Origin: Amoebophrya sp. AT5.2
Taxonomy: Eukaryota; Sar; Dinophyceae; Syndiniales; Amoebophryaceae
DNA: 44,495 bases
Reading direction: 5' to 3'
Assembly (NCBI GenBank): GCA_005223375.1
Contig: RXOD01003852.1
Coordinates: 1 to 44,495, forward strand
A model generated the notes under the pieces. That model was not told the origin of the DNA, did not search any database, and saw only the letters and a program-made list of their open reading frames with translations. Made by a program: the position numbers and the translations under genes. Positions 3,555 through 23,484 of this stretch are shown here, piece after piece (the stretch's first letter is position 1; every line of letters starts with the position of its first letter).

Positions 3555-6151
3555 CTATTCTTCCGCAGCCTCCTCGGGGCTCTCCTCCTCGTCGTCATCG
3601 ACTTCGACCTCCTCGGACACCTCCTCTTCGTCGGCAGGACTCTCCTCCGGCTGCGGCTCTTCGGCTGGAGACGGAGAAGTTGATCGATCAGGGTGTATCA
3701 AATCAACAATGCAACGCCAACGGTATTACGGATACGCTTCAAAATGGGTGCTCAACAGGATCAGCACGACCAGTTCGAGTTTATTGCGTTGCGCGTGATA
3801 CTGATAGCTAAGATATAACCAAACTTCCTCTACCTGCTCCTTCCGCGCCTTCCACTTTGCGTTTTTTGGATCCTGCGGCTTTCGGCTTGGTGGAGCTCGC
3901 GCGCTTCTTGTCCTTTTGGATGAGGGCGTTGAACTTCTTGAACTCTGGCGTCTTCTTAAACTCCTTCATGTCCGCCTCGTACTTCACAGCCAGCTCTTTG
4001 TGCTTCGCCTCGTACTTCTCCTTCTGCTCCGCGGAAAGCGCATCGTATTTGGCTGCAGGATACAAGATTAATATACTTCTTGTGTTGATGATGAACTTGA
4101 ACAAGAACATGAAGAAATTGAAACTCAAATTGAAAAACTTAAAATTGTAGGTTGCAACAAGGAACAACTAGAAGAGGGCCGTCGAAGTACTTACCACCAA
4201 AACCAAAATCAAACTCCCTTCAGTCTCACCTTTGATGACTGCTGATCGCTCCTTCATGCCAGCGGGCTTGCCTTGTGCCTTCAGCTCCTCAATGACGGTA
4301 GTGGTGACCTCCTGCGAATACAGAAAGTATGCGCTGCCCGGTTTCGTCGGCTGGCCGCTAGCCTTGAGCGCCTTCTTCGGGTCCAACTCCTGCTGCGCCG
4401 CTGTAAACCTTATTCGCCAACATCAAGAGAGTGTACTAGTGATGAGAACTCAACACAAGTTGTCTAGGTGAGGTTCTTGGGCTCTTTCAGTAGAATTATC
4501 GCCTTAATAGCCTCAGCCTCAGCCTCAAGCTCAACTACACTTCCTAGGTCGCGAGAGACAAGCTCGCACTTTCTTTCACTTCTAACTACTTAGGTCACAT
4601 ACGCATCAATAGAAGTGGGCGTAGGAATGAGTATGCACTTTTTTCCCGCGTCGGTTTCGTTCCATGCGGCGAGGTCTTTTCGGTATTGCTCTTTTTGCGC
4701 GGCGACCTTTTTCTCCAGTGCGTCTTTATCTGCTTGCGGCAGCGCGTCCCACCTCTGCTTGACGATGCCGGCGCGGGCCTTCATGTCTCCCGCGGGGAAG
4801 TTATGACGGGACCAATTGGTAAGTAGCAGTAGGCAACCAAGTGGTAAACGCTTTTCTTGGGGTGCTCTTCAGGCTCCCCTTTGGCGTTGGTCGTCCTGGG
4901 AAGAGCAGAAAAGCAGCCATCCGCGGTCGGAAGGACTGGCGCGCCGACAGCTGGCAATAAATCGTAATGCTAGGCGCCATATTTTGCCCTGCGCCTGCTG
5001 TCAGGCCCTATCACCATTGCAATCAGTGGCTTTCCAGCACTGCACCAGCCTCCCCCGGCCGCGACCTCCCAATGGCTCACCTACCCCGACCCTTGCCTAC
5101 CCCCTACCCCCCACGATTGGGCGTCTCTGGAACCGCCCCGGACTCTCTCGCGTCAAGCGGTTCAGAGCGCCTTGGCCGACGCTCGCCATCGCTGGGGCAA
5201 AAATCCGCCACCGCCTAGTGGGAACCCAACATCACCTAGCACTTACCGAGTCTCGTGCCCACTAACTTACCATCACTGGTCCGGTCATAGACGTTCTTCT
5301 TCTGCATCTCCTCCATGACCTCCTTCATGATCGAGGCACTGAACTGCATGTATCCGGACGCAGGCGCCTTCGGCATCCCCGACTCCTGCGCTTCCTTCTT
5401 CGCCGCAGCACCCTTCTTCTTCTTCTTGTGCGCGCCATCGGCCTGATGTAGATTCATCGGAGGATCGATGGAGGATCTTCTTTACCGGAAGATCTTCATA
5501 ATTGTTTGCAGATCTTCGTTTACCGGCGGGTACCTATGTATCAGATCATCCGATACTCGGATTTGCACGGCGAGAAGTAGGAGGCTCGAAGATACGAGAT
5601 CGATCATAAAATTAAACGTCATAGACACACATACTAAACCTAAGGACATGAATATAAGCAAGTACCTTGAGGTATTCCTTGTACTCGGCAGACTTTTTCC
5701 ACTCCTCCAGTTTCGCTTCGTAGCTCTTCTTTTGCTCGGCCGCAACGGTTTCCCACTTGGTTTTGTCGGCCACCTCCTTCCACATGTCGCCGAGCTTCTT
5801 GCCCATGTCCGCCATCTTCAGCTTGCCATCCGCAGCCTCCTCCTGCAGCTGCTTCATCACCTCCGGCCGCTTCTCATCGCAGAAAAGCCTGTGGTAGGAC
5901 GAGGTTGACGTCAATTAATAACCGAAGGCGGAATATGTGACTCATTCTGATAGATTGTGACTGTCGCGAGCGCTCGCGGTCGCCGGAAAACAAATATGAA
6001 ATAGAAGATGGCCATGGCGTTGGCGACAAATAAGGTCGTGATAAAAGTACATGAAGCCGCTTTTTGCCCGTGCTGGTCCGCCGTAGGTCTCCTGCTTGAC
6101 GCTCTTCTTCAGGGACACCTTGGCGTCCTTCGCGGGTACGTCGGCCGGCAT
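3555..6151 (-). CDS. Three-HMG-box protein with acidic tail (HMGB-like), 7 exons
   Basis: Likely DNA-bending chromatin protein of about 397 residues, ATG at 6151. Exons read from frame and splice motifs: about 6035-6151, 5666-5888, 5247-5442, 4639-4786, 4230-4408, 3834-4052, 3555-3664. Box 1 spans exons 1-2 (FMYFYHD, then EKRPEVMKQ, MWKEVADKTKW). Box 2 spans exons 3-4 (MPKAPASGYMQFSAS, then RWDALPQADKDAL). Box 3 spans exons 5-6 (KPGSAYFLYSQ, then YDALSAEQKEKYEAK). Exon 7 encodes an acidic C-terminal tail rich in Glu/Asp, as in animal HMGB proteins, ending at the TAG at 3555. A Lys run precedes box 2. The frame closes across exons 2-7 with GT-AG introns; the exon 1/2 junction has no in-frame canonical solution that I can find. 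Intron 3 is introner copy 1. Role in chromatin is known for the family; nuclear location is inferred. Confidence 0.85.
4804..5262 (+). mobile_element. Introner element copy 1 (inside HMG gene intron)
   Basis: A 459-base element occupying almost all of intron 3 of the HMG gene (intron about 4787-5246). The left end fits the consensus TGRCGRGRCCARWTGGTAA and is preceded by TA (4802-4803). The right end, read inward on the minus strand, is more diverged but keeps GGTAAGT at nearly the same distance from the border, and TA follows at 5263-5264. The interior matches copy 2 in at least three blocks in the same order: about 4851-4884, 4987-5035 and 5110-5139. The element is oriented + while its host gene is -, so it is antisense to transcription. 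The donor used by the host (exon ends at 5247) lies inside the right terminal repeat; the best in-frame acceptor is just outside the left end (exon resumes at 4786). No protein is encoded, so any transposition would have to be non-autonomous. Confidence 0.8.
5474..5526. repeat. Short imperfect direct repeat in HMG intron 2
   Basis: GATCTTCTTTACCGG at 5474-5488 recurs as GATCTTCGTTTACCGG at 5511-5526, with a further GATCTTC between. It lies in the intron between exons 2 and 3 of the HMG gene. Probably local slippage or duplication; no function is suggested. Confidence 0.6.
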
Positions 6152-6818
6152 TGTCGCTTACGTTTCTACTTTCAATTTCTTGTTTGTATGTGCGGTAGCA
6201 ACTAGCACAACAGTGCAACAAATTGGTTGTAGCTGTAGGTGTCAGAGTTTTTGAAAATAATAGTCCTGGATCAAGATCAGGTGGAAGCGCGGGATGATCA
6301 AGAGGATAAAGCTCAACACTTTGTCGTACTTGGTGTAGTTGATGTTGACCTTATCGGTTTTATTGTTGAGGGTATTTTCTGCAGATTTGTCGCCATTTGG
6401 GGAGAAAAAGAAATGCGGTTATTTATTAGATTCATTTGCTGATCGTGGCTCTTGGTGGTTGTTTCTCTCCAGCGTGCGTCTGCGTCGCCAACTGGTTTAT
6501 AACCGAATTGAATCGCGAACAGAGTTTCAGACTCATCGGGACAAAAGAGAACCAGAAGCAAGGAACCCTTGCCAACTCCGCTATACAGGATCTTTTTTTA
6601 GGTGAAGCGCGTTTCACGAATTCTGCAATCTTATCCTCGTCCGAACCCGAAGGAGAAATTAACAGCAGCCGCGTATTTGCTTTTGCGCAGCTTCGAACCA
6701 CACGACGGACGCGTATCAATAATTGCTCCCTCTCGGAGATGCAGATTTCTACTTCCGACGAGTCTTCATGTAATACAAGTGTTCGGCTCCAGCTGGCAGC
6801 TGCACGTGTGCCTCTTGC
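6152..6818. other. Intergenic, nothing recognised
   Basis: About 670 bases between the FkbM-type gene (3' end at 6819) and the HMG start at 6151. Short open frames on both strands (for example 6432-6719 minus) have no recognisable motif. It should hold the 3' untranslated region of the upstream gene and the trans-splice acceptor or 5' untranslated region of the HMG gene, but I cannot place either. Confidence 0.5.
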
Positions 6819-9174
6819 TTACAGCTCCGCTTTATCTTCCTCCCTCCCACCTCCATCATCACTCCCTTCTTCTTCCTCTTCCTCATCGTCCCCACCTCCC
6901 TTCTTCTTCAAGGCGCTTCTTGGTCTGTTTGTGCTGTAGTCGATTTTCGGCTGTTTGTGTTCGTGGAATCCGTGCGTTTTGTTGCCCATGATTCCTTCTT
7001 GCTCTGCTTTCGCGTTGCTAACGTAGTCCAGTTCTGTCAAAAGGTTCCCAAGTTTGACGTACACGTGGTCCCCCCCTAATACCGCCACCTTCCCGTACCC
7101 GTTTGTGAGCAGAATCGCGTCCACGGCGTAGAAGTTGTCAGGCTGCACCTCGATGAGCCAGACCTTGATGTCCCACTTTTCGAAGGGAAACACCTTCAGT
7201 TAGAGGCTGAAAAAATCTTCCGATCAGTGATGGTCATCACCGACTACAGCGATCTACCCGCCTGAGAAGGGTCGCCGGCAGCTTCCTATGCCATGCAATT
7301 TACTGAGCGATGGGACGCAACACCGATCACAGATGGAACGACGCAGCCTTCGCCGATGGGCCCGATGGGGGCCGATAAAAGTCGGAGTCTATTTTTAGTC
7401 CTACTTGCGATCCCAAAACTCTGGCCCCTCTGGAGCCACGGCAATCTCCCATGGCTCGTGGCAAGGAGGTGTTCTATTGATTCACGACTTGTGACCTCCC
7501 ATACCCAAACGACACGCCTGCACCTCGATGTTAAGCCAGACCTTGATGTCCATCGCTACACCTGGATTTTTTCAACTACCCTTAATTGAGGATCTCGACC
7601 TCCGCGTGTTCCGCGTCCAGGGACACGTAGTCCACGATCCGCTGCCCAAATTCGTTTCTAGGAAAATCGAAAAAGTTCCGCAGGATCGCGTCCAGGGGGA
7701 GACACACCGCGTCGAACTGGTGCCCCGCCTTCTTGGAGTTCTGCTGCGCGTGCACGTCGTACGTGTTGATGTCGGGGATGTCGCCGGTGGCCTCGTCGGG
7801 AACCGCGGCCTCGATCATGTCCTTCGCAAAGCTCATGGTCACCGTCTTCTCGAAGCTCCACACGCAGTGCGGCACCAGCTGGCAGCGGCGGTAGGTCTTG
7901 AACAGGTGGCTGTGGTACGGGTTCGGCTCCACGCAGATGCCCTCCCAGTGCAGGCACTTCTCGAAAAACAAAGTGTTCGAGTACTTGAACGGGTGGTAGG
8001 CACCCACCTCGGCAAAATAAAACTTCTCGCGAGCAGAGGGTGGGGAGGGACTTCCAGATGCTGCCGCACCCTGCACCGCCGTTGGGGTCACGACGCCGTT
8101 TATTATCTTCATCGGTCGTCCCGAGCCCGAGCCCGACGGAGAGGCACTACTAGTACTGCCCGCACCTCCATTATTTCCGCCCCCTTCCGGTTCCGCCTCT
8201 CCGCTTCGCTCCACGGCCTCCTTCGAGAAGAGGTTGTGGTAGATGAACCAGTCCTGCTGCCACTGGGTGGTCCAGCTGGCGGGCCGTTCCTTCGCGTGGA
8301 TGAACTCCTCGCATTCCACCATCGGCGACTGCGCCATCACTTCGTCGAACACGCTCTCGCTCGGAACCATGCCCAGACAGACGTTGTCCCCGCAGAAACT
8401 CCCCTCTCCGAGCACCGCCTCCCACGACCGCGACATCCAGCGACACTCCAGCTGCTGGTTGTGGCACGAGGACTCCGACTTGATGTAACCCAGAAAAATG
8501 CTGTCGATCTTGCGCGCGACGATGGAGACGTCCTCGAAGCTCACGTGGGGGTAGTGGAGGGAGAGGATAATCATGCTGCAGTAGGAGTCGAAGGAAGCGG
8601 CGTCCTTGAACCCGTTCACCCGGTTTTTCCCGTACGTATCCTGCAGCAGCCGCAGAATCTGCACCTCGTCGGTAGGAGGGGTTTCCTCATCACCTGAGGG
8701 ATCTGCGTCTTTTTCTGCGTCTGCCAGCCCGCCCACGCTATCCCTATCGCTGTGTTGACCAGGACTCTGATACTCCTCGTCCTCCCTGGATGAAGATGAA
8801 GATAGTCCCGCAACGTTGAGGAAGTGCACGTATGTGTGCTCGTACTTGGGGGGCTGCAGACGCGCGAAGATCTGGTGCGCGAGCAGCTCGTGGAAGGGCA
8901 CGAGGCCGAACATGCAGATGGTCATATGGGGCGGCACGTGCTCGACATAATCCTCCACCATGTGAAAGAACTCTGCAACGGCCGGCGCGTCACTGTCAGC
9001 AGCGGCGAGCCCTGCCGCGAAATAAAGCAGGACGATAGACAGCTGCGTCAGCCACAGCATTGATCTCGAGACTCGGAGCTTGCGGTCGCGGAGAATGGGG
9101 GCGCCGCAGCAGGCGCTGATGAACGGAGACGAAGACGAGGAAGTGGAAGACGACGAAGCAATAAAGACCTCCAT
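6819..9174 (-). CDS. FkbM-type methyltransferase with membrane anchor, 2 exons
   Basis: Protein of about 655 residues. The first in-frame ATG is at 9174; the open frame reaches 9354 only from a GTG. Exon 1 runs to about 7586 and exon 2 is about 6819-7194. A hydrophobic segment near residues 38-60 (LWLTQLSIVLLYFAAGLAAA) looks like a signal peptide or anchor. An unrecognised region follows, with Ser/Gly-rich linkers. The C-terminal third matches the FkbM/Methyltransf_21 fold: KFYFAEVGAYHP (motif I), GICVEPNPYH, CVWSFEKTVTMSFA, then DYVSLDAEHAEVEIL. Exon 2 completes the motif with FPFEKWDIKVWLIEV and ends in an acidic tail. The split falls exactly between SLDAEHAEVEIL and FPFEKW, so both exons are needed. 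The junction lacks an in-frame GT donor, and the intron carries an inverted repeat and a copy of exon 2 sequence. Substrate unknown. Confidence 0.78.
7143..7552. repeat. Exon-derived direct repeat flanking the FkbM intron body
   Basis: About 32 bases of exon 2 (7143-7174, encoding DIKVWLIEV on the minus strand) recur inside the intron at 7518-7552. The match is essentially perfect apart from a three-base insertion. The two copies are about 375 bases apart, close to the length of the intron, so the intron may have arisen by or with a local duplication of exon sequence. Confidence 0.75.
7195..7585 (-). other. Unusual intron with inverted-repeat ends in FkbM gene
   Basis: About 390 bases separating the two FkbM exons. 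Near both ends there is a perfect 10-base inverted repeat: TGAAAAAATC at 7208-7217 and its complement at 7565-7574. Exon 1 runs into TAA directly after EVEILN, and no GT lies between the conserved EIL codons and that stop, so the donor is non-canonical if the reading is right. The acceptor side is plausibly CTGAAG just before the GTG at 7193. The intron interior does not clearly match the introner family at 4804 and 22888. Confidence 0.55.
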
Positions 9175-9716
9175 TTTCTTCAGCTGAAGCCCTGTCGAAC
9201 TAGAAACTGAGGCTAGATCATCTACTTCTTCAGAAAGCAAGAGTAAGTCACCGTCACGAAGGAATGCGATTTCCCTGAGCGTTCTCCTGTGACGTTCAAG
9301 CTCGTCACGCCCACCGAATCGGCGGCCGCTGTAGGAGTCAGCCGGCGGGTGCACAGCGATTTGTTCCAGAAAAAAAATGATCTGATGACCAGGAGTACCA
9401 CGTCCACGACTTTGTCACATAGCCACAGGGATCCCGAATCCGAAACCGCGGATACCGAAAGGAGAGGACCGTCAATGAACACGCGCAACGAGGACTCAAA
9501 CACACGACAAGAACACGTTCGTCTGACGGACCTCTCGGTATTTCGTTTTTCCGCGATCTTGTGTGCAGTTCGTGCTCATCGCGTTCGCGACGCAGCCATT
9601 CTTGCGCTTGAAAACCAGTGCATCTTTTGATCATCAGCTCCCGTTTCAGACTCGCTCAAACAAGTTCAAGTGAGCGAGCCGAAGCCAGTAACTCTGTTAC
9701 ATCACACAGCTGCCTC
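9175..9716. other. Intergenic, nothing recognised
   Basis: About 540 bases between the TFIIS-like gene stop at 9717 and the FkbM ATG at 9174. Part is open in the FkbM frame up to 9354 but without an ATG. No motif, RNA gene or repeat was seen. Confidence 0.5.
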
Positions 9717-12700
9717 CTAGTCTCCTTCCCTCCATCTGTAGTCGCACTTGTTGCAGCGGTAGGAGGTGACTGGGTCTCCGTGGTCGTTGTGCCAGCCCCG
9801 CTGCACCGTTTGCGAGTAGATTTCGTCCGTGGCGCCGCACCGCCCGCAGGCCGTGCCGTCGCGCACCTTCGTGCCCTGCATGTCCTCCGCGAAGTTGCCG
9901 TTCCCCCTCGTCTTCCCCCGTTCTTCCAACAACAGGTCCTGCTCCTCCGCCGTCATTAGGAACTCCGCGGGGAGCAGGAACAGGTGGTAGAAGCACAGCT
10001 CCTCCCGGTTCAGCATTTCCAGCACGCGGGGCTTCGTCCGCAGCCGCGACCGCGCCTCGCGGACGCAAAAATCGTACCGCTTGCGGTCCTGGAACTTGCC
10101 CACGTAGCAAAAAATCGCCCCCTCCAGGTCCATAGCGTCCTTTTCCATCAGACCGGACTTCTTCAGCAACTCGATGCACTCCTCCCGGTGCTGCTTCGGA
10201 ATCCCGACCGTTGGCCCCTTATTGTCCGCCCTGTTCACCGCGCCGCTCTGCTGCGCCGCATTGGAAATACCTCCTGAAACCAGCGCGAGCGCGGCAGAAG
10301 TAGTGGTTCTGGTTGTAGCTGCCGAGGAGGCGCTGGAGTTCTTGGCCGCAGCTGGTAGTGGTGCAGCTCCTGCGGGAGCCCCGCCGGCGGGTTTATTCTT
10401 GGAGGCCACGACCAGCGCCAACTGCTGCTCGTTGTTGACGGCGGCTTTGAGAAAGTTCACCAGCTCCTTGGCCTCGTTGCGGCTTTTCGTCGGCAGGTTC
10501 GGGAGTTTCGACAGCTCCGTCAGGACCTTGCCGATGGAGCTCTGTTTCAGGACCTCTCTGTGGATCTTCGGCTTGTAGATCTGCAGCTGCTGCAAGTCTT
10601 GGCTGATCCGGGCAAAATCCGCCGCCGTCGGCGCCTTCCTCTCGCGGAAATCCAGCCGCGCGGCGATGCCCTTCACGCGCTTCAGCAGCTCGGGGTCAAC
10701 CGCGAGAGAAGACGACGTGGAGCTAGAAGTTGTAGTTGTTGCCGGCCGCTGCTGTTGCCCTTGCGGCTGCTTAGCACTGATCATGTTCGAGTTCGCCTTG
10801 GCGTTTTCTTCGCTCGAAGACGTGAACTCTGGTGGCTTGACGCGCTGCCACACGCCCGTGCCCACGTAGTAGTCCTGAGGCAACGTGTTCTTCCGCGGCA
10901 GGGAGGAGGTTGCTGAGAAACTACTCCCCTGGGGACCACCAGGTGGTCTCACAACTCCCCCAAAATTCGACGCCCCGCTTAAGTTTCGTGCGAAATTTTC
11001 GGAAGGACTCGGCCCACCTGACGATGCCATATTAGCGGCCACCGCAGAGGACGCAGTGGGCGTTTTGCCCCGGGAGGATTTGTTTTCCCTCACGGACTTC
11101 TCGAAAAAAACAAGCGGCGGCACGTCGCGGTCGGCGTACGACGGTTTTCCCACGATGCGATCCTCCCCCCTCTTGCTGCTCCCGAGCAGCACCGGGTTCT
11201 GCTCTTTCGGCTCCGTGCCCAGGAAATTCAAGTTGAGCGACACGACCTGCTTGCCGCCGGCGGCCCCTCCTCCTGCGACCGGAGAACGCCCGAGCGATCC
11301 AGATGATCCCGTGAAACTGATGCTGGCGGTCGAGGCAGATGCCGCAACCGCGGCGACAGATCCCGTGCGTTGCAGCTGGGATCGGGGTCGGTGTTTGTTC
11401 ACCTCCGCGTCCACCCCCGCCCCACTTCGTCGGCGGTCATCTCGCTCTCGGTCGATTACGCCCTTCACAGATGGATCTTGCCCTTGACTTGCGGGCGCTG
11501 GCGCTCCCTTGAGTACGTTCCGGAGGCGGGCCATTTCTTTTGTCGCTTTTGCGTCGCTCTCAGATTCCGCTGAGTTACTGCTGGGGGCCGCGCTCTTCCC
11601 GCTCGCCGCGTCGACATCGGCGGCTGCTGCTCTTGGCGGTACGGGAGGCGGCGGCCTGGAGGTGGACGCCACGGCCACTGCCCTTGGTGCAATGTTATCG
11701 AAATTAGAAGATGACGACGAGCTGCTGCTCACTCGTCGGCGCTTTGCATCTGCTTTTCCTAAGGTGTCAACATCTGGTGCAGCAGGTGCCACCGCTGAAG
11801 AGGGGGATGGTGCAGAGGAAGATGATTTTGAGTCATTCATGGCCGCCAGAACAGCGGCCGCTGAGGGTTTCGGACGCTGTTCTGTCACCTCCCGCGAGCC
11901 GCCGTGCTCCTGTGGTTGTTCGGCTTGGCGTTTATTGCCATTTATCGGATGCTGGCGCGCGGCAGCTACTGGTGGAGGTGAGGGTGATGAACCTCGTCCC
12001 GAGCTGCTAGATGACGATGAGCCTGACGAGGACGACGAGGAGGACTCGCCGCCGTCTGGTGACTCGGGGCGGTCCTTTCTGTTGGCTTTGGCAACCGGGA
12101 CAGGAGGAGCAGCAGCAACATCACTCTTGGGGCGGAGAACGTCCCCGGAGCTTCCACCCGCCGAGCCGCTTTTCGAAGCCGAACTTGTCGAGGCCGGCAC
12201 GCCCGAACCCGAGGATCCCGATGTAGGTTTGATAAAAATGTCATGCGTCGTGGTCACAATTTTCACCGGCGGTGAAGGTGCTGGCTTGTTTGTGTTTGTC
12301 GATATTTTTGTTGTCGAGCCCCTTCTTGCGACCAGCTCAATTTCTCCGGTGGCACCACCGGATGAAATCAGCCGGAATTCGAATACGGGTGCCGGGCGCA
12401 CGAATGTGGCTGCGATGTCCTGGAAGGCGGTTGCGGGGGTGCCGCGTGCATCTGCCCCTCGACCCGCAGGCGACTCCACATCGATCTCGAATTGCTGACC
12501 GTTGGCATCACCGCTTTCAACATCGCTTCCAGCTGGGCTGTTTTTCTGGGAAGACCTCCCCGGTACGCGTATCCTGGCGCGCCGCAGTGAGGCATCTCGC
12601 ACCGACTTGACGTACAGCGTCGCTTCTTGCGTGGCGACGATCCGCCCGACAGAGGCAAGGACGGTCTCCGGCGTGAAGAAGAAGCCACACTCAGCCTCGC

Positions 12701-12956
12701 TCGTCACCCGAAACGAAAAACTGGTGGTGCCTGCTGCTGCAGAAATGGTGCCAGCTTCTTGTTCATCACCTGCTCCTGCTTGGTGGACTACAAGTGGAAG
12801 CTTTTTTCCGGACAACTTGGCAAACGCCGTCGCAATATTGGCGAAAGTTTTCTTGAGCCCCACCTGCGGCAATGAGTACGACTTTCTTGTGCCGGCGCCG
12901 CTATGGTCCTCGTCCACGGCGTCTACAAGCGTGACTTTCACCTTCCCCGCGGACAT
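9717..12956 (-). CDS. TFIIS-like transcription elongation factor with long Ser-rich region
   Basis: Single exon, 1079 residues from the ATG at 12956; codons further upstream are open only from a GTG. The C-terminal part carries the TFIIS signature in order. First is an LW/TFIIS N-like helical domain (LQQLQIYKPKIHREVLKQ, SSIGKVLTELSKLPNLP, AKELVNFLKAAV). Next is a central-domain-like segment (HREECIELLKKSG to AEFLMTAEEQD). Last is a C-terminal zinc ribbon with Cys at about 1037, 1040, 1068 and 1071 and a final YRW. Family TFIIS stimulates transcript cleavage by RNA polymerase II through an Asp-Glu pair in the ribbon's acidic hairpin. Here that hairpin reads QRGWHNDHGDPVT, lacks the adjacent Asp-Glu pair and is about three residues longer. 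The first 700 residues are low-complexity Ser/Ala/Pro-rich sequence. Elongation factor is the best call; catalytic competence is doubtful. Confidence 0.8.
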   Translation of the reverse strand: MSAGKVKVTLVDAVDEDHSGAGTRKSYSLPQVGLKKTFANIATAFAKLSGKKLPLVVHQAGAGDEQEAGTISAAAGTTSFSFRVTSEAECGFFFTPETVLASVGRIVATQEATLYVKSVRDASLRRARIRVPGRSSQKNSPAGSDVESGDANGQQFEIDVESPAGRGADARGTPATAFQDIAATFVRPAPVFEFRLISSGGATGEIELVARRGSTTKISTNTNKPAPSPPVKIVTTTHDIFIKPTSGSSGSGVPASTSSASKSGSAGGSSGDVLRPKSDVAAAPPVPVAKANRKDRPESPDGGESSSSSSSGSSSSSSSGRGSSPSPPPVAAARQHPINGNKRQAEQPQEHGGSREVTEQRPKPSAAAVLAAMNDSKSSSSAPSPSSAVAPAAPDVDTLGKADAKRRRVSSSSSSSSNFDNIAPRAVAVASTSRPPPPVPPRAAAADVDAASGKSAAPSSNSAESESDAKATKEMARLRNVLKGAPAPASQGQDPSVKGVIDRERDDRRRSGAGVDAEVNKHRPRSQLQRTGSVAAVAASASTASISFTGSSGSLGRSPVAGGGAAGGKQVVSLNLNFLGTEPKEQNPVLLGSSKRGEDRIVGKPSYADRDVPPLVFFEKSVRENKSSRGKTPTASSAVAANMASSGGPSPSENFARNLSGASNFGGVVRPPGGPQGSSFSATSSLPRKNTLPQDYYVGTGVWQRVKPPEFTSSSEENAKANSNMISAKQPQGQQQRPATTTTSSSTSSSLAVDPELLKRVKGIAARLDFRERKAPTAADFARISQDLQQLQIYKPKIHREVLKQSSIGKVLTELSKLPNLPTKSRNEAKELVNFLKAAVNNEQQLALVVASKNKPAGGAPAGAAPLPAAAKNSSASSAATTRTTTSAALALVSGGISNAAQQSGAVNRADNKGPTVGIPKQHREECIELLKKSGLMEKDAMDLEGAIFCYVGKFQDRKRYDFCVREARSRLRTKPRVLEMLNREELCFYHLFLLPAEFLMTAEEQDLLLEERGKTRGNGNFAEDMQGTKVRDGTACGRCGATDEIYSQTVQRGWHNDHGDPVTSYRCNKCDYRWREGD

Positions 12957-14083: not shown

Positions 14084-17000
14084 CTAGACGATCTTGATAT
14101 CCACGTCTGCGCCGCCGTCGAAGACTCGAACGACCTTGCGAGTTGGCAGGTGGCTCAGCGGAACACCCTCCTTTTCTTCTCCCGCGCAGCTGCCTGGCGT
14201 CCCTCCGCCCCTTCCTCCCAAATCCGCGTCACAGAAGAACGCGCACGCGAGCAGGTTTCCCGCCAGAAACAGCAGCCCGATCGATACCGCTATCCACGTC
14301 GCGTTGTTTCCCAGCATGAGCTCTCCGGGTGTGAACACGCTCGTGTAGATCAGGGATGCGATGCTTGATGGCGAGGAGTTGCCTGTAGAAGTTCTTGCTT
14401 CCTCCGACGTCGTGTCGCTAGCTGGAGATGAGGAAGTATATGGCGGGGTGGACGACCACTCACTCCCAGCTTCTTCGTCGTCAACTGCCTCCGAGGCCGG
14501 TGACTGCGGCGGGGCTACGCTGCGCTGACGCCGGTGATGTTGGTTATCACTCCCGGCTGAGCTGCTTGGCGGCGGGAAATTGCTAAACTCCCGATCGAAG
14601 AAAAAAGGCCCCTGGTGATCGTGGTGGTGTTCTTCTTCAACTGCTTCGAGAGGAGCAGGAGATCGGCGTGGCGCAGGCGAAGGCGCTTGCTGGTGCGCAT
14701 GCGGTGTGCCGCCGAGAAACAAGGCGGAAGTAGACGAAGGCGAGTTCAAGTAGTTTCCAGGACTGCTTCCAGCAGCCGTGCTGGGAGTGGCTTCATCGTG
14801 GCCACCTCCTCCTCGGTCGGGTACTCCGTTTTGTTCCGCCTCTCCGGGGCCTTCCTTTTGTTCGCGGACGACTCGTTTCAGCGAGGCGAGCACCTCGAGC
14901 GCTTCGCGCCTGGCATCCTCATTCGCGCCCCCGCGCGGGAGAAAATGCGCGTCGCCGGAATCGTCCTCGTCGTCGTGCTCATCTGTAGTGCTTGAAGCGG
15001 TTGTGGAGTTCACGCTGCCAGTGGTGTGACTAGCTAGAAACGAAGATGATCCGGGAGCGCTTCCCGGACTCGACCGGCTTGATGCGCCCGCGCCGGTCGA
15101 CGCAGCGGCCCCGCCTCCCTGTGGAGGCTCCACTGGGTCGCTGCGTACAGCATGGCCAACGTCCTCATTCTGCAAAACTCGTCCCGCAGAAGACCGGTCG
15201 TCGTCCAGCTGTGTTGTATTTTCAGCCGCATGAGGTCCGCTTCCTCTGCCGGCTTCCACGTCCTCGTCAGAGAACAAGTTGTCCACGACCGCGCCTTGTT
15301 CTATTTGTTTTGTGGTCGTGGAAGAAGATGGTGCTGCAGCTCCGGTTCCTTCATCAGAGGTTCCATGTTCCTCTTCGTCTTCCGGAAGGGATTTCATGCG
15401 CACCAATGGCAACCCCGCGCCCCCGCGTCGATACACCGTCCGAGTGGCAAGAACGCCTCGAAGTTCTGCGGGAGACCGAAAGACGTCGTCGATGTAGTCG
15501 CCGCCCGCGGCGCCGGAGGATAGCAGTGGCGGCACGGCAACAAAATTCCAGAGGTACAAGGGAACACCACGCGCCAGCCGCTCGGGACCGTAGGCCTGCA
15601 AATGCGGTGCGAGAAAGAGGTCGTAAGTCTTCCCTGCGACGACGTCTTTTCTACTTTCTTCGACTTCGCCGCGGCGTTGAGAGGAAGAACAGGAAGATGC
15701 AGTAGTTGCGTTGCCTCGCTCGAGGTCCAGCTCCGGGCTGGTCGGCCCCAGCACGGTCTCGCCGCTCTGGTGATCAGCATTCGCCGTTTCAAACTCCCGT
15801 CGTTTCAACGCATGATCCGCTAGTCGCCCGCCCGTGGACCACACGAACTTTTTCGCATCTCGCCCGTCTTGGTAGAGCCGGAAGCGGTAGGAGGTCGTGG
15901 CGATGGGGCTAGAATTGTTGCTGTAGCTGCTGCCGCCGACGATTAATCCGCGCCCCGCGCACACGAGCGCCAGGTCCTCGAGCGGCGTAGGTGCTGTCGC
16001 TTCAAAAGATGAAGAAGCAGGTGGAGCCTCCATTTTCATTTTTGTCGTGGTCCCCACGGCCACGCCGTCATGCGACTCCCAGCTCAGCTCTGCCCACGTG
16101 CGCTGATAGTTCAGCTCTGTAAGAGAAACGGCGGTGACGCGTTCGCTCTTGCGGTGGGGGTTCTGCGTCACCAATTTCACCGTTTTCATCGGCAGTGAAG
16201 TCAGGTACACGCCGGCAGGACAGCCATACAGAGCCTGCTCCTTCTGCTTCTGTTCTTTGGTTTCGGATGCGTTCTTGTCTTCTGGTTCGCGTAGAAGCTC
16301 TGCCCCAGCCGCGGCCATATGTTGACCGCTCGACGGGGCCACCAGCTCACGTCCACGTTCCTCTTCCTCTCTCGACGGAGCAGTGATGACCCAGTATAGC
16401 GTCTTTGCAGGGAACAGCTCATCTACTTTATTTTGTCTGCTATAGCGAGATGCACCAGGAGCAGCCGGCTGCTTATCTACTTCTTCCCGCATGTACAGGG
16501 CGAGGTTTACCTCCTGGTCCTGCAGCAGGTGCTGCTGTTCTCCATACCCATACCCGGGCCTCGCACTTCTTGTTGCGCTTCGCTCGCGTCGCAGCACGAA
16601 GCCTGCGTAGTTTCGGTAAGCGAGGGTGCCGGTATGGAGCGCAAACCGGTGGTCTCCGCTCGAGGGCACGACCACGCCGTTCTGGCAGGCCACCGGCGCA
16701 ACGAGTGGCACCGCGTGACAAGAATTGGAATTGGTCAAGCTGATCAAGCCGTTTACTATTTCGTTGGTACTGGTATGCCCCCTCTGCTCTCCAACGCCTC
16801 GAGCACGACATTCAAGAAGGTCGAAATACGAACGAAGAGCTGGCCGTGGTCGCGGGATTGATGATGGAGAAGTTCTACTTCCCCTCGGGGACGAGGAGCC
16901 CTGCACCGGCGGCGCGCCGGCGACGAGTCCGAGGGCCTCCAGGTCAAAGTGATCTTCTTCGTCGTGGTCGTCCCCGGCTTGATGGGTCCGCTGCCGTTGC

Positions 17001-18322
17001 GCACCAGAAGTTGTAGTGGTCTCCGCTGGCGCAGAAGTGCCAAAAGTTCCCTGTGCTGACCGGCGGCCGAGTTCCAAATCCTCAACGCTTCCCGACGGTG
17101 GAAAGGGGGAACTGCGCTCATGGCGATGGTGGCCACCCTGCTGCTCTCCGGAAGAACTACGTGCCGACTCGCGCAGCGGAATTCGGTCCGAGGGCAGTGA
17201 TCGTAACCCAGCCTCCAGATCGATATCCTCCACATTGATCCCCGCGGCCGGAATCAGATTCGCAAGTGGCATCACAGCAAGTTGGCCCGCCCGCAGCGCG
17301 GCAGCCTCCGCTTGCAGGCCCGCCACCTCCGCGGAGAGCTGACTTTTCGCCGCAAGCAGCTTCGAAGCGCGCTCGGAGAGAGTTTCGCCCTTCTCCAGAT
17401 CGATTTCGGCAGTTGCGGGGGCGGCTGTATTCGCTTTCCCTCTACTAGTACGGGTGGATACTGTCATTTTAGTACCATCGTCCGCCGCAGCGCTCGCCGC
17501 ATACACCTCGCGGGCGGACAGAGGAGCTGGTGGCTCCCTGGGATGCGAAAGACCCAGGCCGAGCTCCTCATCGTACTCGTCGCTCTCTGGTTCTTGTTTC
17601 CGTTCACCTCCCCGCCCCTGTGTCCGCGCCCCCGCACCCCCCCCAAATCCGACGATGTGCTTGCTCAGCTTCCCCAGCCGTTCTCGGAGATAGCGCACTG
17701 GGCTGAAGAGCTTGGAAGATGAAGCTGCTCCTGCTGTAGCAGATGAGTCAGATGAACCTCCTCCAGCATTTTCTTTTTGGACAGCTTTCATCTCCGCCTT
17801 CTGAAAGAAACGCACCAGCTGCCAGATGCTGGCGTCGATCTCGGCAAGCTGCTGGTTCTTTTGCTCGAGGCGGTTGCCTATCTCCAGCTCCGCGGCCGAG
17901 GGAGATTTTCCGGACCAGGATTCGCCGTCCCGCAGCGCAGCCGAGATGTAGTACACGCTCGACGACGGCGTCAGATGAGGGGCCTGCAGGGGCGGAGCTT
18001 GAACCGCGTAGTAAGTTCCCTCGACGGGGCAGTCCCAAGTCTTCGGAACTGCTACCATTTTTCCGGTCGTACTACCCCCGGCCCCCGTTCCGGAAAAAAA
18101 CACCAGCAGAACCGCTTCAAGGAAAAGCGTCCTAGTTCTCGTAGAAGGACGAGGAAACGCAAACGGGCGGGGAGCAGCCGCGTCGTGGTGAGGAAGGTGC
18201 CGCGACGAGCTTGTACGTGGACGGAAACAACGAAGAGGGCACAAACGGCGTCGCTTCCGCATCCCATCATGGTCCTTACCGCGGACATGATTGCCAGGAA
18301 CCGTCTTCGGTCTACGCCTCAT
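14084..18322 (-). CDS. Very long low-complexity membrane protein, hypothetical
   Basis: Uninterrupted 1412-codon frame with ATG at 18322; not recognised. A basic N-terminus leads to a hydrophobic segment near residues 64-80 (LFLEAVLLVFFSG), which may be a signal anchor. A second, stronger membrane segment lies close to the C-terminus (WIAVSIGLLFLAGNLLACAF), followed by a short tail of about 50 residues. Between them are Ser/Gly/Glu-rich stretches, a helical segment (LEIGNRLEQKNQQLAEIDA) and islands with more ordered composition, for example PLYLWNFVAVPPLL and YRNYAGFVLRRE. This suggests a type I or two-pass surface protein with a large lumenal or extracellular part. Internal ATGs at residues 21 and 88 are alternative starts; starting at 88 would lose the first hydrophobic segment. 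No catalytic motif is visible. Confidence 0.65.
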   Translation of the reverse strand: MRRRPKTVPGNHVRGKDHDGMRKRRRLCPLRCFRPRTSSSRHLPHHDAAAPRPFAFPRPSTRTRTLFLEAVLLVFFSGTGAGGSTTGKMVAVPKTWDCPVEGTYYAVQAPPLQAPHLTPSSSVYYISAALRDGESWSGKSPSAAELEIGNRLEQKNQQLAEIDASIWQLVRFFQKAEMKAVQKENAGGGSSDSSATAGAASSSKLFSPVRYLRERLGKLSKHIVGFGGGAGARTQGRGGERKQEPESDEYDEELGLGLSHPREPPAPLSAREVYAASAAADDGTKMTVSTRTSRGKANTAAPATAEIDLEKGETLSERASKLLAAKSQLSAEVAGLQAEAAALRAGQLAVMPLANLIPAAGINVEDIDLEAGLRSLPSDRIPLRESARSSSGEQQGGHHRHERSSPFPPSGSVEDLELGRRSAQGTFGTSAPAETTTTSGAQRQRTHQAGDDHDEEDHFDLEALGLVAGAPPVQGSSSPRGSRTSPSSIPRPRPALRSYFDLLECRARGVGEQRGHTSTNEIVNGLISLTNSNSCHAVPLVAPVACQNGVVVPSSGDHRFALHTGTLAYRNYAGFVLRRERSATRSARPGYGYGEQQHLLQDQEVNLALYMREEVDKQPAAPGASRYSRQNKVDELFPAKTLYWVITAPSREEEERGRELVAPSSGQHMAAAGAELLREPEDKNASETKEQKQKEQALYGCPAGVYLTSLPMKTVKLVTQNPHRKSERVTAVSLTELNYQRTWAELSWESHDGVAVGTTTKMKMEAPPASSSFEATAPTPLEDLALVCAGRGLIVGGSSYSNNSSPIATTSYRFRLYQDGRDAKKFVWSTGGRLADHALKRREFETANADHQSGETVLGPTSPELDLERGNATTASSCSSSQRRGEVEESRKDVVAGKTYDLFLAPHLQAYGPERLARGVPLYLWNFVAVPPLLSSGAAGGDYIDDVFRSPAELRGVLATRTVYRRGGAGLPLVRMKSLPEDEEEHGTSDEGTGAAAPSSSTTTKQIEQGAVVDNLFSDEDVEAGRGSGPHAAENTTQLDDDRSSAGRVLQNEDVGHAVRSDPVEPPQGGGAAASTGAGASSRSSPGSAPGSSSFLASHTTGSVNSTTASSTTDEHDDEDDSGDAHFLPRGGANEDARREALEVLASLKRVVREQKEGPGEAEQNGVPDRGGGGHDEATPSTAAGSSPGNYLNSPSSTSALFLGGTPHAHQQAPSPAPRRSPAPLEAVEEEHHHDHQGPFFFDREFSNFPPPSSSAGSDNQHHRRQRSVAPPQSPASEAVDDEEAGSEWSSTPPYTSSSPASDTTSEEARTSTGNSSPSSIASLIYTSVFTPGELMLGNNATWIAVSIGLLFLAGNLLACAFFCDADLGGRGGGTPGSCAGEEKEGVPLSHLPTRKVVRVFDGGADVDIKIV

Positions 18323-19159
18323 ACTGTGTAGTTGCTGTGTCGTTCGCCTGTCCTTCTTCGCCGATCGGGGCCCGCAGCAGCGGTTCTCGTTCTCCGTTCT
18401 ATGTCTTCTACAACTTGTTTATTTTGGTTTATTCTAGACTCGCTTTATGGTTATTTTCACGCTTCTCCATGTGTTGCGCGGCGGAGAACAGTAATCGCAC
18501 GAAGGAAAGACACCAACCACGGTAGGATCCAAAAGTAAACAACGAACGATCTATCACGAACACTACGAACCCGAGTAGAAAACAAAAAAGAAAAGCCGTT
18601 CTTGACTTGCGAGACGAGATGCGAAATAAGAAGTGATCATCCAATATATTTCATGTTGAACGCAAAACACGAGACTCGCTGGGCGGTAACGGTAAGGGTA
18701 AACACGCTTCACCGCTTTCCTATTTGCGAGCTATGCGCTTTTCTCCCATTCTGTCGGAGCAGGTGGGGCATCCATTGAAGAAGCCGGCAGCGGTGGCGGT
18801 GGGCCGTGCATCTTATTTCAGCAAAAAAAACACTTCTTGTTGATGAGTCTTGTGCTTGTCTGTCCGCGAGGTCGTCGGGAAATTCGTCCGAAATCGAAGT
18901 TCGACAAGTGGACGTCTTGCGTCGACAGCCTTCTTCTTCTTCTAGACGTAGACGCACTAGTACCTGTTCAATTTCAGCAGCCGTGCAGAATGAAATGCAA
19001 AAAACAAACACTCATCTGATCTCGGACGAAAAACGACAGCGTCGCCAGTGCAATATTAACTGAACGTACACGTAGCTAGTGCTAGTAGCTCAAGGTACAA
19101 CTAAGACTATTACTACGTTTCGAAGAATCGCTGGATGCCATCGCAGCATCGGACACTCT
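18323..19159. other. Intergenic, nothing recognised
   Basis: About 840 bases between the CKS1 stop and the ATG of the long membrane-protein gene. Short frames on both strands (18429-18644 and 18709-19011 minus) have no recognisable domain. It should contain the CKS1 3' untranslated region and the trans-splice acceptor of the gene that follows. Confidence 0.5.
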
Positions 19160-19720
19160 TCAGGCGTGCAGTTGGTTCGATTGTGAGGGGTCTTCGACGA
19201 TGCCGGTCAGCGGGTTGGTTCCCAGCGGCCGCCTGAAAAGCAGGATGTGGGGCTCCGGTCGGTGGCACTCGTAGTGGCACCATCCCCGGCTCTGCTGCAC
19301 GCCGAGGCCCCGCCACTGTTCCTCCGAAAGAAGCGTTCGCGTGTTCTTGTTCCCATACCTGGTGCGAAGGAAAAGTAGGAAGCCGTGTGTTACATGTTTC
19401 TGGATACACTTGTTCTAAGAGCTCGAGCACAAGTCATGGAAGAGGAAGAAGACGCATCCTTCCATCGGCGGATCCGGCTTCGGCTTCGGATACATCGAAG
19501 CACCAGATGAAGACCCCATATAAGGTTGGTTGGTAGTCGTACAAAGAATTATAAAAAAATAGAATGATGAAGTAAAAGCAAACATCGCGATTGTAACTAA
19601 GTACCCAAAGCTGGCGTACATCTTTTTCGCGATGTGCTTGGGGAGGATGACGTGCCGGTACTCGTAGGTATCATCCTGATACTTCTCGCTGTACTCGATC
19701 TCGTCCGGATAGTGAGGCAT
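19160..19720 (-). CDS. CKS1: Cyclin-dependent kinase regulatory subunit CKS1, 2 exons
   Basis: Small adaptor that binds cyclin-dependent kinases and phospho-sites in cell-cycle control. Exon 1 is 19620-19720 and exon 2 is 19160-19358, joined by a GT-AG intron of 261 bases with phase-2 borders that restore a Met codon; 99 residues in all. Exon 1 encodes [20 protein letters not shown] and [14 protein letters not shown]. Exon 2 encodes [18 protein letters not shown], then [17 protein letters not shown]. These are the hallmark CKS motifs, including the anion-binding and CDK-contact segments and the [13 protein letters not shown] strand involved in domain swapping. After FRRP the protein continues for about 20 residues to a TGA at 19160. 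Exon 1 reads on into the intron without a stop for about 200 bases, so the conserved motifs in exon 2 are what fix the junction. Confidence 0.96.
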
Positions 19721-20195
19721 CTTGGGCGTCTACTTCCAATGCACAACTGCTTGTCAACACACCGAAAATTTCCCTAGTGATTAACACGAATGAGAATGGT
19801 GCAAGAGGACCAGGACGAGCGACCCCATAGTACGGTGGTGCTAACGTAGTTTTGATCTAACTAACTCTAAACTCATTTATCTACTTTTTGAAAAAATCGG
19901 CGACAGAATTTATTAAACGAGCAGGGCCAAGGCTCTTGCTTCTTATGTCCGCGATGACTTTTACTTTATTTGTCTCGGGGTTCCTCGAAGACCCCTTCTT
20001 CTAGTACGCCGTCCCTTTTACTTGCTGTTATCAATCCATCGTTATCATCAATCCATCGTTCCTTGTCACGTCGCCGCTTTGCATTTTATCTCTTGCGGTT
20101 TGCGTTTGCTGTTGCTCGACGTCGTGCCTCAGGATGTCATGGCATGGGTCCGATGAACACGAAGGCCGGGTGCCAATTTTCTGGTTGCGCCCCAT

Positions 20196-20281
20196 CATCC
20201 TCATGCGCATCATGAGGATGAGGGGGATCATCCGATGAAGACGGCGAACGATGATTCCCCTCATCCTCATGCGTCGTCTTC
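20196..20281. repeat. Overlapping inverted repeats (alternative hairpins)
   Basis: Arms at 20211-20232 and 20250-20271 are complementary over 22 positions with one mismatch, around a 17-base loop. The first arm also pairs with 20196-20205 in a 10-base perfect hairpin (CATCCTCATG with CATGAGGATG). The loop sequence GAAGACGGCG near 20237 is nearly complementary to CGTCGTCTTC just beyond the second arm. The three pairings are mutually exclusive in part, so the RNA or DNA could switch between folds. Location is downstream of the coiled-coil gene and upstream of CKS1. Confidence 0.75.
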
Positions 20282-20377
20282 ATGTGACTCGACGGACTGC
20301 GACTGCGACAGTGTTACGCTTACGACGGGAAAAAATAAAATGAAAATCGTCTGCGAGGAGGACGCGAAAAATAAGCA

Positions 20378-20420
20378 TGCAGACGCAGTTAGCATGTACT
20401 GTTCTACTTCTGCGTCTGCA
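20378..20420. repeat. Perfect 11-base inverted repeat
   Basis: TGCAGACGCAG at 20378-20388 is exactly complementary to 20410-20420, with a 21-base loop. It lies about 95 bases downstream of the coiled-coil gene stop codon in the transcript sense (20513) and could form a stem in that transcript's 3' region. Confidence 0.7.
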
Positions 20421-20512
20421 CTTTCATGTGATTCTGAACCAGCTCACGGAGGTCCGCTGAGGAGCAGCGAGAAGACAAGAAGAGTGAACGCACTAAAACG
20501 ACCTTTGTTTAG

Positions 20513-23484
20513 CTATCGGTTCCCCAGCACTTTTTCCGCGAATTCGCCGCTGTCGATGTCTGCTCCCCGCAGAATCGCGATCGCTTCTTTCAAGGCTTCC
20601 GCTTCTCGGGTTCGCGTCTCTTGGTTGCGGTCGAAATTTTCGATCACTGGGATGCAAATCTTCCGCTCCCCAAACATGGTTTCCGATAACGAAAACTGCT
20701 CCCCCTTTAAGTTCTTCAGCTCTTCGTTCTCGGCCACCAGATCCTTCTTCGTCTCCGCGGCTTGCGACTCCAGTTCCGCGAGGGTCGTGCTGATGGCGAG
20801 CATCGAATTCTCATGGTCCTGTTTCAGCGTGTCGAAGGCCTCTACAACCTTGTCGAGGGAGGATTGGAGCTGGGCTTGGGCGGTGGAGGCCTCGTTTTTG
20901 ACGTTTTCCAGCATCTGCAGAACGCCGAAATGGTGGTCGTGCGTCTCGTACGCTTCGAACCTAACCGGCGGAGGCTCGTTCTTCGGCTGGCGCTTGTTGA
21001 GACGTCGACTCTCACCTGCTGCTGCGCTGAAGACCTGGACAAACGAAGCACTTTCGTCCGTTTCCCCGGGTTCATCTGCAGCGCCAGCTGCACTTGATGT
21101 TGTCCCAGCACCTTGTTCAACATCTCCCATCATCTCCTCCGCGATTGCGTCGTGCGCCTCTTTCTTGTCGTAAAATCCTTGTAAAGTCGCCAGCGCCTTC
21201 ACCAGCAGTTTCTGCACTGCAATTTGGTCCGCGATCTGCACCTGCAGATCTGCAGTCTCCGCTTCGAAATTTTTTTCCGCCTTCTCCATGTCTTTTTTTT
21301 GCTGCTTTTTCTGCTCCTTCGTCTCCTCTTCGTCTTTGAGCAGGGTCTCTTGTTTCGCTCCCAGCAGTTGGATTCCGACCTCCTTCTTTTCGATTTCGTT
21401 CGCCAGCCTCTGGTCCTCCAGCTCGTTGGCGTGCATGGAGGCCTGGCAACGGTTCTTCTCGTTCAGTTCCTCACGGTTTTCAGACTTCAAATCCATGATC
21501 AACCCGTCGATTCGCTGAATCACGGAAGCTAAGGCGCCGGACGTGCGGGACGCTGCAGGAGGCTGCGAGGATGATCCTGCTGCAGGGTCCACCTGCTGCG
21601 TTTTGCTATTGCTTCTTCCACTCGTGGTTCCTTGTTGCACTAAGCTGAGGAGCCGCGCATCCTTGCTCTGGTTGTATATCGGCCGGAAAAGAGAGTTGAG
21701 CCTGTCCAAAAGCTGTTCATCGGAGGGAGGCAATGAAGTCGACACTGCGGAGAGCTGCAGAAAACTCCTGTCCTGCAGCAGCTGCACTTTCGCAAAGGCA
21801 TCGCGCGCCTCGTCGGACGAGAGAATCTGGTGTGTTCAGAAAGAATGTTGAATACGTACTACACGTTGGAATCAATTTCACTTCATGCGCGAATGCGAAT
21901 CGCTAGGCTAAAGAATATAGAATATCAACTTCTAATTCAAAATCGAATCAGTCAAGGAGCAACAACCAGCATGACGAGGTCATAGAATCTGAATCACGCT
22001 TTAATAAGTAAGTAAGTACTTCCGTCGCCTCTGCTAGCGCTTTTCTTTCTTCCGATCGTTCTTTTGTCCGCAGGCCGTACATTTCATCACTGTCCTTGCA
22101 GATCTTCCGCGCCTCGCTTATCCAGCCGTCCAACGAGTCCAGCATCGCTTCCGCGTCCACGAGGGAAAGCTTGGCCTCCGCCTCCGCCTCGTGCGCCCGC
22201 GCCATGGCCTCGTGTTTTGTGGTCCGCTGCTGCCGCATCCGGTCCGCCTGCGCGTTTCGGTCTTGTCGGAGCTGCAAATACGCCGCTACCGCCTGCGCCT
22301 CGCCCGCGGTGGTTTCCTGCAGGTTTTGCTCAAACGTGGTCTGCATCTCGGTCAGCATACCGGTCACCGTGGCCGTGTCGAGCGGAGACTGCTGGAGCAG
22401 GAGGAGGGCAGCAGCCGTGGTCGAAGTGGTCGTCCCGAAGAGTTTTTCCTGCACGTCCGCGCTGAGCAGCTTTTGCTGGCCGCTCTGAACCACCTTGCTC
22501 TTCAGCTTCATCAGCATCGCGCCTGCGCGCGTGCCCGCGCTCGCGGATTTCGCGTTCTTCAGGACGACGATCGCCGCGTTGATCTGCGTCACGCTTTCCG
22601 TCAGCTCCAGGATCGCTTTTTGGTTTTCCTCCTGCTCTTTCTCGCGCCGCTCCTCCGCCTGGAGCAGTTCGCCAGCGACGGCGGCCAAGTCCTTCTCCAG
22701 CTCTTCCAGGGACAGTTTCCGCCGCGCGGCCTCCGCGCCCTGCGCCGCAATCTCGGAGTTGAGCTGCCGGATTTCCGCCTCCACGCCCTTCACGGCCTCC
22801 GTCTTCTCCACCGCGTTGTTCTTGCACCAACAGTCCATTTTGGTCTTCGCGTCGTCGTCCTCGTCCTGGTCCTGCTCGAGCTGACTATGGCGGGGCCAGA
22901 TGGTAACTAAGTGAGCAACTGGTAAATTACTGTGTAATGGGTTCTTCCCTCGGGTGGCGAGTTCGCTAAGGCACTCTAAGCGCCGGGCGGTTTCAGAGAT
23001 GCCCCATTGTGGGTTGGGGAAGGGGTGGCGTGGGGAGAGGAAACCGATTGGGAGGCAGAGGGATGCAGCGGTGGCGGAAAGCTGCTGACTACATTGGCGA
23101 TAGGGCCTGAAAGCAGGGCAAAGGCGGCGCCTAGGGTGGCGATTGGCTATGTCGGCTATAGGGTGCAAGAGTGGCGCCAAACCCGCCGACTGCGAAAAGA
23201 CTGCTTTTCTCCGACTGCTGCCCTCTTTTTAGGACCACCAAAGGGGACCCCGGAGAGCCCCCCCAAGATTTCACTTGCCACTTAGCCACTTACCATCTGG
23301 CCTCGCCATACTGACTCTCCATCTTCTCGAGCAGCTTCACAATCTTCGTGATGGCGCGCTGCTTCTTAGAAAGAGCGGGGGAGGCGAAGAGGACGGCGGC
23401 AACAGCGAATCCGACGAGGACCCTTGGCGGGGGGGACCGGGAGCCGAGCCATCTTGATGGGGAGGAGAGGAGCGAAACCGGCAT
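20513..23484 (-). CDS. Secreted dinoflagellate-type coiled-coil protein, 3 exons
   Basis: Protein of about 789 residues, ATG at 23484. Exons: 23294-23484, 22020-22884, 20513-21826; borders are phase 2 then phase 0 and close the frame. The N-terminus is a clear signal peptide (VLVGFAVAAVLFASPALS). After it come long coiled coils with recurring modules that I know from dinoflagellate proteomes: a KMDCWCKNN segment followed by Glu/Ala heptads, LDGWISEARKICKD, IQRIDGLIMDLKSENREEL followed by further coils, QKLLVKALATLQGFYDKK, and CIPVIENFDRN followed by EALKEAIAILRGADI near the end. The family is abundant in dinoflagellates; its function is not established as far as I know. Intron 1 is introner copy 2. 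Its conventional donor lies inside the element's repeat, so a few residues after SQYG (EAR) are encoded by the element itself. Secreted or endomembrane location is inferred from the signal peptide. Confidence 0.87.
22888..23308 (-). mobile_element. Introner element copy 2 (inside coiled-coil gene intron)
   Basis: A 421-base element with terminal inverted repeats: the left end TGGCGGGGCCAGATGGTAA and the right end, read inward, TGGCGAGGCCAGATGGTAA differ at one position in 19, and similarity continues after a five-base gap. TA lies exactly outside both ends (22886-22887 and 23309-23310), as expected of a TA target duplication. The interior matches copy 1 in reverse orientation in blocks at about 22985-23013, 23076-23119 and 23236-23270. 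Here the element is in the same orientation as its host gene, opposite to copy 1. The host donor (exon 1 ends at 23294) lies in the terminal repeat at the same point as in copy 1, and the acceptor CCATAG uses the target-site TA plus the next exon base. No protein is encoded. Confidence 0.88.

Follow-up and report, generated by a model that had tools for sequence, protein, structure and literature searches.

MITE-like introners of one large family lie in coding exons and are probably removed exactly, together with one copy of their target duplication

The window (the whole stretch of DNA analysed, 44,495 nucleotides long) contains two related elements, each of which interrupts a gene read from the minus strand. 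Copy 1 (488 nt, 4802-5289) is inserted in an HMG-box-like gene (minus strand), between a 5' coding exon that begins at a putative ATG (5290-5457, minus strand) and a 3' coding exon that runs to the stop codon (4590-4801, minus strand). It was delimited from the sequence and from the family ends, and it passed the frame test described below, in phase 0. Its left inverted repeat (4802-4824, plus strand) carries the motif GGTAAGT at 4818-4824, and its right inverted repeat (5265-5289, minus strand) contains a 2-nt insertion and carries GGTAAGT on the minus strand at 5271-5265. The target duplication that borders it reads GAAGT on the left (4797-4801) and GACGT on the right (5290-5294), with four of the five bases identical, the right-hand copy being placed from the sequence and from the 5-bp duplication found across the family. 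Copy 2 (425 nt, 22886-23310) lies in a coiled-coil gene (minus strand), between a 5' coding exon traced from its reading frame (23311-23484, minus strand) and a downstream coding exon, also defined by its frame (22020-22885, minus strand). It has a left inverted repeat (22886-22908, plus strand) with GGTAACT at 22902-22908, a right inverted repeat (23288-23310, minus strand) with GGTAAGT on the minus strand at 23294-23288, and an exact target duplication, CTGAC (22881-22885; 23311-23315). A putative ordinary GT...AG intron (21827-22019, minus strand), picked out by eye from the reading frame, is also present in the coiled-coil gene.

These borders replace those of the preliminary description (4804-5262 and 22888-23308), in which the right end of copy 1 had been missed because the 2-nt insertion hid it. 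The TA at the borders, which had been described as bordering the elements, is not a target duplication but opens the inverted repeat, and the duplication is the 5 bp lying outward of it. The motif GGTAAGT is present within the repeat, as had been described, at three of the four ends in the window, and the left end of copy 2 deviates from it. The two interiors are oriented oppositely relative to transcription (-1 for copy 1 and +1 for copy 2, both hosts being on the minus strand), in agreement with the earlier account. Regarding the host genes, the long coding frames on both sides of the elements stand. The HMG-box assignment has weak support (PF00505/PF09011, E about 0.0025, below the curated cut-offs), and a Pfam search of the copy 2 host exon (22020-22885) gave no match. 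In the window alone, the first 13 end bases with up to two mismatches occur 8 times against 7.1 expected, which is no excess; the four exact matches are the four element ends. An introner also sits at the same codon position in a second gene, on contig C878 (L052), which was called HMG-like by eye. The stretch aligned between it and copy 1 (L051:1499-1986) is 79% identical and the exons are very different beyond about 28 and 11 flanking bases, a situation due either to gene conversion around the intron or to an old shared insertion.

The proposal of an element family depended on further copies being present in the genome, and these were found. Indeed, the element-end pattern (up to two mismatches) has 742 matches, 384 and 358 by strand, in the 50.7-Mb genome of 2759 contigs, against 0 for the reversed pattern searched as a control in the same genome. 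A variant end pattern gave 200 matches, a set that overlaps with the 742, against 0 in its control. Full-element queries returned at least 41 matches each, scoring having covered 40 of 364 and 40 of 148 first-look candidates. Of the 58 ends of 29 copies taken from the loci found with DNA queries and from the window, 43 conform to the end pattern, which suggests about 500 copies; this estimate is crude, and on the density seen in the window the figure would be about 2280. The two window elements are true members of one large family of several hundred copies, and the inverted ends and related interiors that had been reported for them are borne out by end and interior matches throughout this family.

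The copies studied come from 80 loci and 50 smaller stretches, picked non-randomly from the match lists and meant to lie away from contig ends. An end profile found 76 two-ended copies in them, to which window copy 1, with its right-end insertion, was added by hand; 67 of these 77 copies have a good duplication, and 66 were retained after one was dropped for too little flank. The elements are 176-574 nt long (median 446, 76 copies) and end in inverted repeats of about 23 nt (TATG....GACCAGRTGGTAAGT), of which the initial TA is part. By interior similarity, 40 of 40 copies in a first set and 75 of 76 usable ones in the larger set belong to a single family, and orientation is consistent in every interior-matching pair (710 of 710, later 2346 of 2346). 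Among the 66 copies, the median pairwise identity is 71% and that with the nearest neighbour 84%. When the two sides of a copy are compared within the coding set, the difference is 7% for the repeat core and 4-5% for the duplications, which had been selected for few mismatches. No sign of coding capacity was seen in the family. As in introners, many similar copies occupy non-homologous positions in varied genes and, as in MITEs, terminal inverted repeats are combined with a target duplication of fixed length. The earlier view of a non-autonomous, transposon-like and introner-like family is therefore supported.

Sixteen unpaired ends, among which window copy 1 is listed twice, were also recorded; 6 of them have a matching duplication nearby, where the partner end has probably decayed. 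A GC-rich palindrome (CCGCCCGGCGC..GCGCCGGGCGG) occurs in the interior of many copies (e.g., L010 and L101), in a region anchored in 48 of the 66; some copies have a different version that is still self-complementary, others are devoid of one arm, and an alignment fold of this palindrome gave no structure. A generic scan for inverted repeats with duplications over 278 kb returned 16 hits outside the family, some of them overlapping, against 2 in a block-shuffled control; these 16 have no common end by eye, and the scan caught only 1 hit of the known family. The only end-motif match among viral contigs, in a phage-like contig (L131:12105-12127), was judged to be due to chance, being single, without a partner end and situated in an open frame. 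Finally, the dinoflagellate spliced-leader pattern has 65 matches in the genome with up to three mismatches (18 exact) against 3 in the control, and the host would on this basis be a dinoflagellate, broadly defined.

The target duplication is 5 bp long. Among the 77 copies it is exact in 52, has one mismatch in 15 and is worse in 10; in the first 40 copies, 27 exact duplications were observed, against 0 in 200 rounds of re-paired flanks. The TA target duplication typical of Tc1/mariner was not found, the duplication being 5 bp long and varied in sequence, and the transposase families DDE_3 and IS1595 were not found in the genome by a family search in which the dynein control worked. A T just before and an A just after the duplication are almost absent (0.04 each; 52 exact copies, both directions). 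The phase of insertion is biased (32, 14 and 9 of the 55 coding copies), a bias that may be explained by this depletion of T and A. A preference for G or C at the first duplicated base was considered as a splice signal and rejected: seen in 24 of the first 27 coding copies, it vanished in the larger set (34 of 55) and was put down to chance.

Borders and duplication can be seen directly at locus L012, where an empty-site duplicate of the insertion site is uninterrupted: it has CTACT only once and matches perfectly over some 60 bases spanning the junction. This duplicate (L012:1931-2081) is on the contig of the element itself, about 150 nt away. The region L012:1782-2081 contains a direct duplicate of the site without insertion, 85% identical over 153 nt. 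A separate empty-site paralogue in L056 was rejected, L056:5-155 being the same DNA as L012:1931-2081; the standing of the best explanation is unchanged by this correction because it is carried by the frame and domain evidence. The L012 element itself failed the frame test, and its joined protein has no match in the PDB. At another locus, belonging to one of the 66 copies (L081:183-745), the supposed element span contains a 72-nt stretch that matches the joined flanks at 97% identity, and the borders may be wrong there or the site locally duplicated.

The location of the elements relative to coding sequence was assessed with a codon model trained on long open reading frames of the window, which classified 203 of 224 pieces correctly (in sample); frames were called in all six frames and independently for each flank, over up to 150 nt. 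After removal of the element and 5 nt, the two flanks have the same strand and frame in 53 of the 66 copies; the other 13 did not give agreeing frames. Where both flanks are called with confidence, agreement is found in 42 of 44 copies. Removal of the element and 2 nt gives agreement in 52 of 66, as expected modulo 3, whereas removal of the element with 0, 1, 3, 4, 6 or 7 nt gives agreement in only 2-4 of 66. The joint criterion places 55 of the 66 copies in exons; applied in the same way to control points, it does so for 43% of 4000 random points of the window and for 35% of 2670 flank points (Fisher p 3e-15 for the comparison with the latter). Insertion is independent of orientation, as had been proposed from the two window copies: 30 of the 55 coding copies are oriented one way and 25 the other. 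In none of the 55 does the host frame stay open across the element and on to 30 bases past it.

Of 7 proteins obtained by joining the flanks, 6 matched solved structures, and each of these is ungapped at the junction in its best alignment, namely with a cystathionine beta-lyase (L010, where the junction, marked by a slash, falls within DYTRS/GNPTR), dynein AAA1 (L110), DNA polymerase epsilon (L003), a cGMP-dependent kinase (L022), a MAP kinase (L061) and a glycoside hydrolase of family 2 (L055, at both introner junctions). The L055 gene carries two introners and, between them, a GT...CTAG intron (1034-1199), and the three joins give one continuous protein. A Pfam domain spans the junction in 9 of 10 joined proteins, that of the copy 1 host being the weak one below the cut-off; in the tenth (L058), the domain stops ten residues before the junction. 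Two introner-bearing genes thus contain apparently ordinary GT-AG introns (L055:1034-1199; window 21827-22019), so that canonical splicing is very probably present in this organism.

The explanation that we favour, and hold to be quite probable on the evidence of the genomic sequence, is that these are MITE-like introners which sit in coding exons and are excised exactly with one copy of the duplication, probably from RNA and guided by a hairpin. The several hundred non-autonomous DNA transposons of this family would have inserted mostly into coding exons, in either orientation, and the transcript would lose each exonic copy together with one copy of the target duplication, which would give back the original message. 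The duplicated bases are arbitrary, so that borders placed there would not be recognisable by their sequence. Pairing of the two inverted repeats in the transcript could instead bring the duplicated bases side by side, and any cut position within the duplication would then yield an identical message. In silico, the ends fold onto each other in 54 of 55 copies; after shuffling of one end, they do so in 13 of 55. The pairing energy of a copy's own ends does not differ from that of ends taken from different copies (-32.4 vs -33.6, p 0.28); own ends pair no better than foreign ones, and there is therefore no sign of compensatory selection on the hairpin. Such a hairpin is to be expected of any MITE, and the pairing may serve only the transposase. 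We infer that removal takes place in RNA, that the hairpin guides it and that the enzymes at work could be either a site-tolerant spliceosome or another nuclease and ligase.

If the elements were ordinary spliceosomal introners, of the kind known from Aureococcus, the GGTAAGT of the upstream repeat would be the donor, an AG near the other end the acceptor, and the residues encoded by the repeat would be kept in the protein. The preliminary description had likewise proposed this donor, the acceptor being formed at or next to the far border. In its favour, GGTAAGT is a strong donor consensus, exact in 42 of the 55 upstream ends, and GT-AG-like introns do exist in the genome, one of them with a clear pyrimidine tract. 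However, the motif is not clearly better kept at the donor end than at the downstream end, where it is exact in 40 of 55; the T of its GT is kept in 52 upstream against 48 downstream ends, a gap mostly due to GC at the downstream ends, which leans slightly towards the donor model. The far border consists of CATA followed by an arbitrary target base and ends in AG in 19 of 55 copies, in AC in 16, in AA in 14 and in AT in 6. With the internal donor, an AG that is in frame and free of stops (in the last 80 nt of the element or the first 12 nt beyond) is available in only 33 of 55 copies, a middling value, since the counts for the sixteen dinucleotides run from 21 to 48. Use of this donor would also keep 17 nt of the repeat in the message. 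They bring in an in-frame stop in 5 of 55 copies, and the opposite end, put in the same place, does so equally in 5 of 55, which means that nothing keeps stops out of the kept repeat. Two of the five stop-bearing copies are in cystathionine-lyase-like and cyclic-nucleotide-binding kinase-like genes, in which the exact join is ungapped against relatives, and the kept residues would interrupt conserved motifs such as DYTRS/GNPTR. Ordinary splicing of this type is consequently improbable, and GGTAAGT would more simply be part of a repeat bound by the transposase.

A spliceosome that used unusual sites inside the duplicated bases, helped by the hairpin or by U1 bound to the nearby GGUAAGU, would account for the exact removal, and the GT-AG introns indicate that the machinery is very probably at hand. 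On the other hand, the duplication has no preferred dinucleotides, and a GT/GC/GA-AG pair within it that would give the empty-site message is found in only 5 of 55 copies; canonical GT-AG introners, as judged at the border placed here, are thus not what was found. This version of events is possible, though we would lean against it. U1 and U2 were not found in the genome, by searches that also missed both in every control genome. It could also be supposed that the copies are gene-destroying insertions, or that they are eliminated from the DNA in another life stage. In ciliates, precise DNA elimination of TA-ended elements is known, and exact removal from RNA is here deduced from coding frames. 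Against this, the flanks are open and in register, coding exons show an enrichment of the elements and not a depletion, the hosts include dynein-like, DNA polymerase epsilon-like and MAP-kinase-like genes, and two diverged HMG-box-like genes, each with an open frame, have kept copies at the same site. Destruction or elimination is accordingly very improbable, even more so than ordinary splicing.

Within the favoured explanation, exact excision from the transcript, the most far-reaching version would be an RNA excision pathway independent of both the spliceosome and RtcB, which would recognise only the paired repeats, whatever the target or orientation, and operate beside GT-AG splicing in the same gene. 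We put this forward tentatively and regard it as rather doubtful. If it were true, coding exons would be a safe landing site for a transposon. The candidate ligase RtcB was not found in the 2759-contig assembly by a search of the same kind as that which found 17 dynein matches. How introner-type elements that lack splice signals are removed is a question to which the Amoebophrya genomes gave rise. It can be tested directly on the present family, whose borders are exactly placed and whose hundreds of copies lie in both orientations and in conserved hosts; at least one host gene with an ordinary GT-AG intron offers an internal control. To judge from this family, others like it may also escape surveys that consider only GT/GC/GA-AG introns.

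MITEs are short, non-coding elements with inverted repeats, a uniform target duplication and a high copy number, and the family resembles them in its short non-coding form, its inverted repeats, its uniform duplication and its number of copies. Unlike MITEs, it is found mainly in coding exons, with the frame kept across the elements. TIR/TSD introners were reportedly treated by Huff et al. in 2016. Among the introner papers listed by literature searches, none describes the present family in its title or in the abstract opening shown. In the portion of the survey by Gozashti et al. (2022; PMC9860276) relied on here, the TIR/TSD introners of Aureococcus, Micromonas, Symbiodinium and others are presented as non-autonomous DNA transposons that create introns, some families having TSDs of 3-9 bp and/or TIRs, and as having splice sites that are either carried or recruited. 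The family described here is likewise a non-autonomous DNA transposon with TIRs and a TSD, and it differs from the examples given in that portion, whose splice sites are carried or recruited from the target, in having no such sites at the border placed here. In SOS splicing, as outlined in part of a review (PMC13247085), transposon RNA is cut from the mRNA of metazoans and the message is healed, with RTCB as the ligase; a removal of transposon RNA and a healed message would be common to both systems, whereas RtcB was not found in the genome studied here.

The closest counterparts are the introner elements of Amoebophrya A25 and A120. According to the sections of Farhat et al. (2021; PMC7789003) drawn on here, they have inverted repeats of 8-20 nt (the A120 motif starts with TAT), direct repeats of 3-5 nt at the border, no clear splice dinucleotides, a predicted hairpin and no internal transposase gene, and they co-exist with canonical introns. 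The same sections report 252 and 1954 introner families, whose junctions come from RNA-seq, no U1 found in A25 or A120, and two putative transposases, in A25 only. According to part of a later Amoebophrya genome paper (PMC12005148), such elements may be limited to some members of the genus. In contrast to what those sections of Farhat et al. describe, the copies studied here form one large family with related interiors, repeats of about 23 nt (somewhat longer than 8-20 nt) that contain GGTAAGT, and a uniform duplication of 5 bp, and their borders are read from the genomic sequence. On the same basis, what is shared with the A25 and A120 introners comprises a dinoflagellate lineage, the lack of an internal transposase gene, inverted repeats (starting with TAT, as in A120), short direct repeats at the border, the absence of a fixed splice dinucleotide, a predicted hairpin and canonical introns alongside. 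In summary, the anatomy of this family, as far as it can be read from sequence, fits the Amoebophrya kind of introner.
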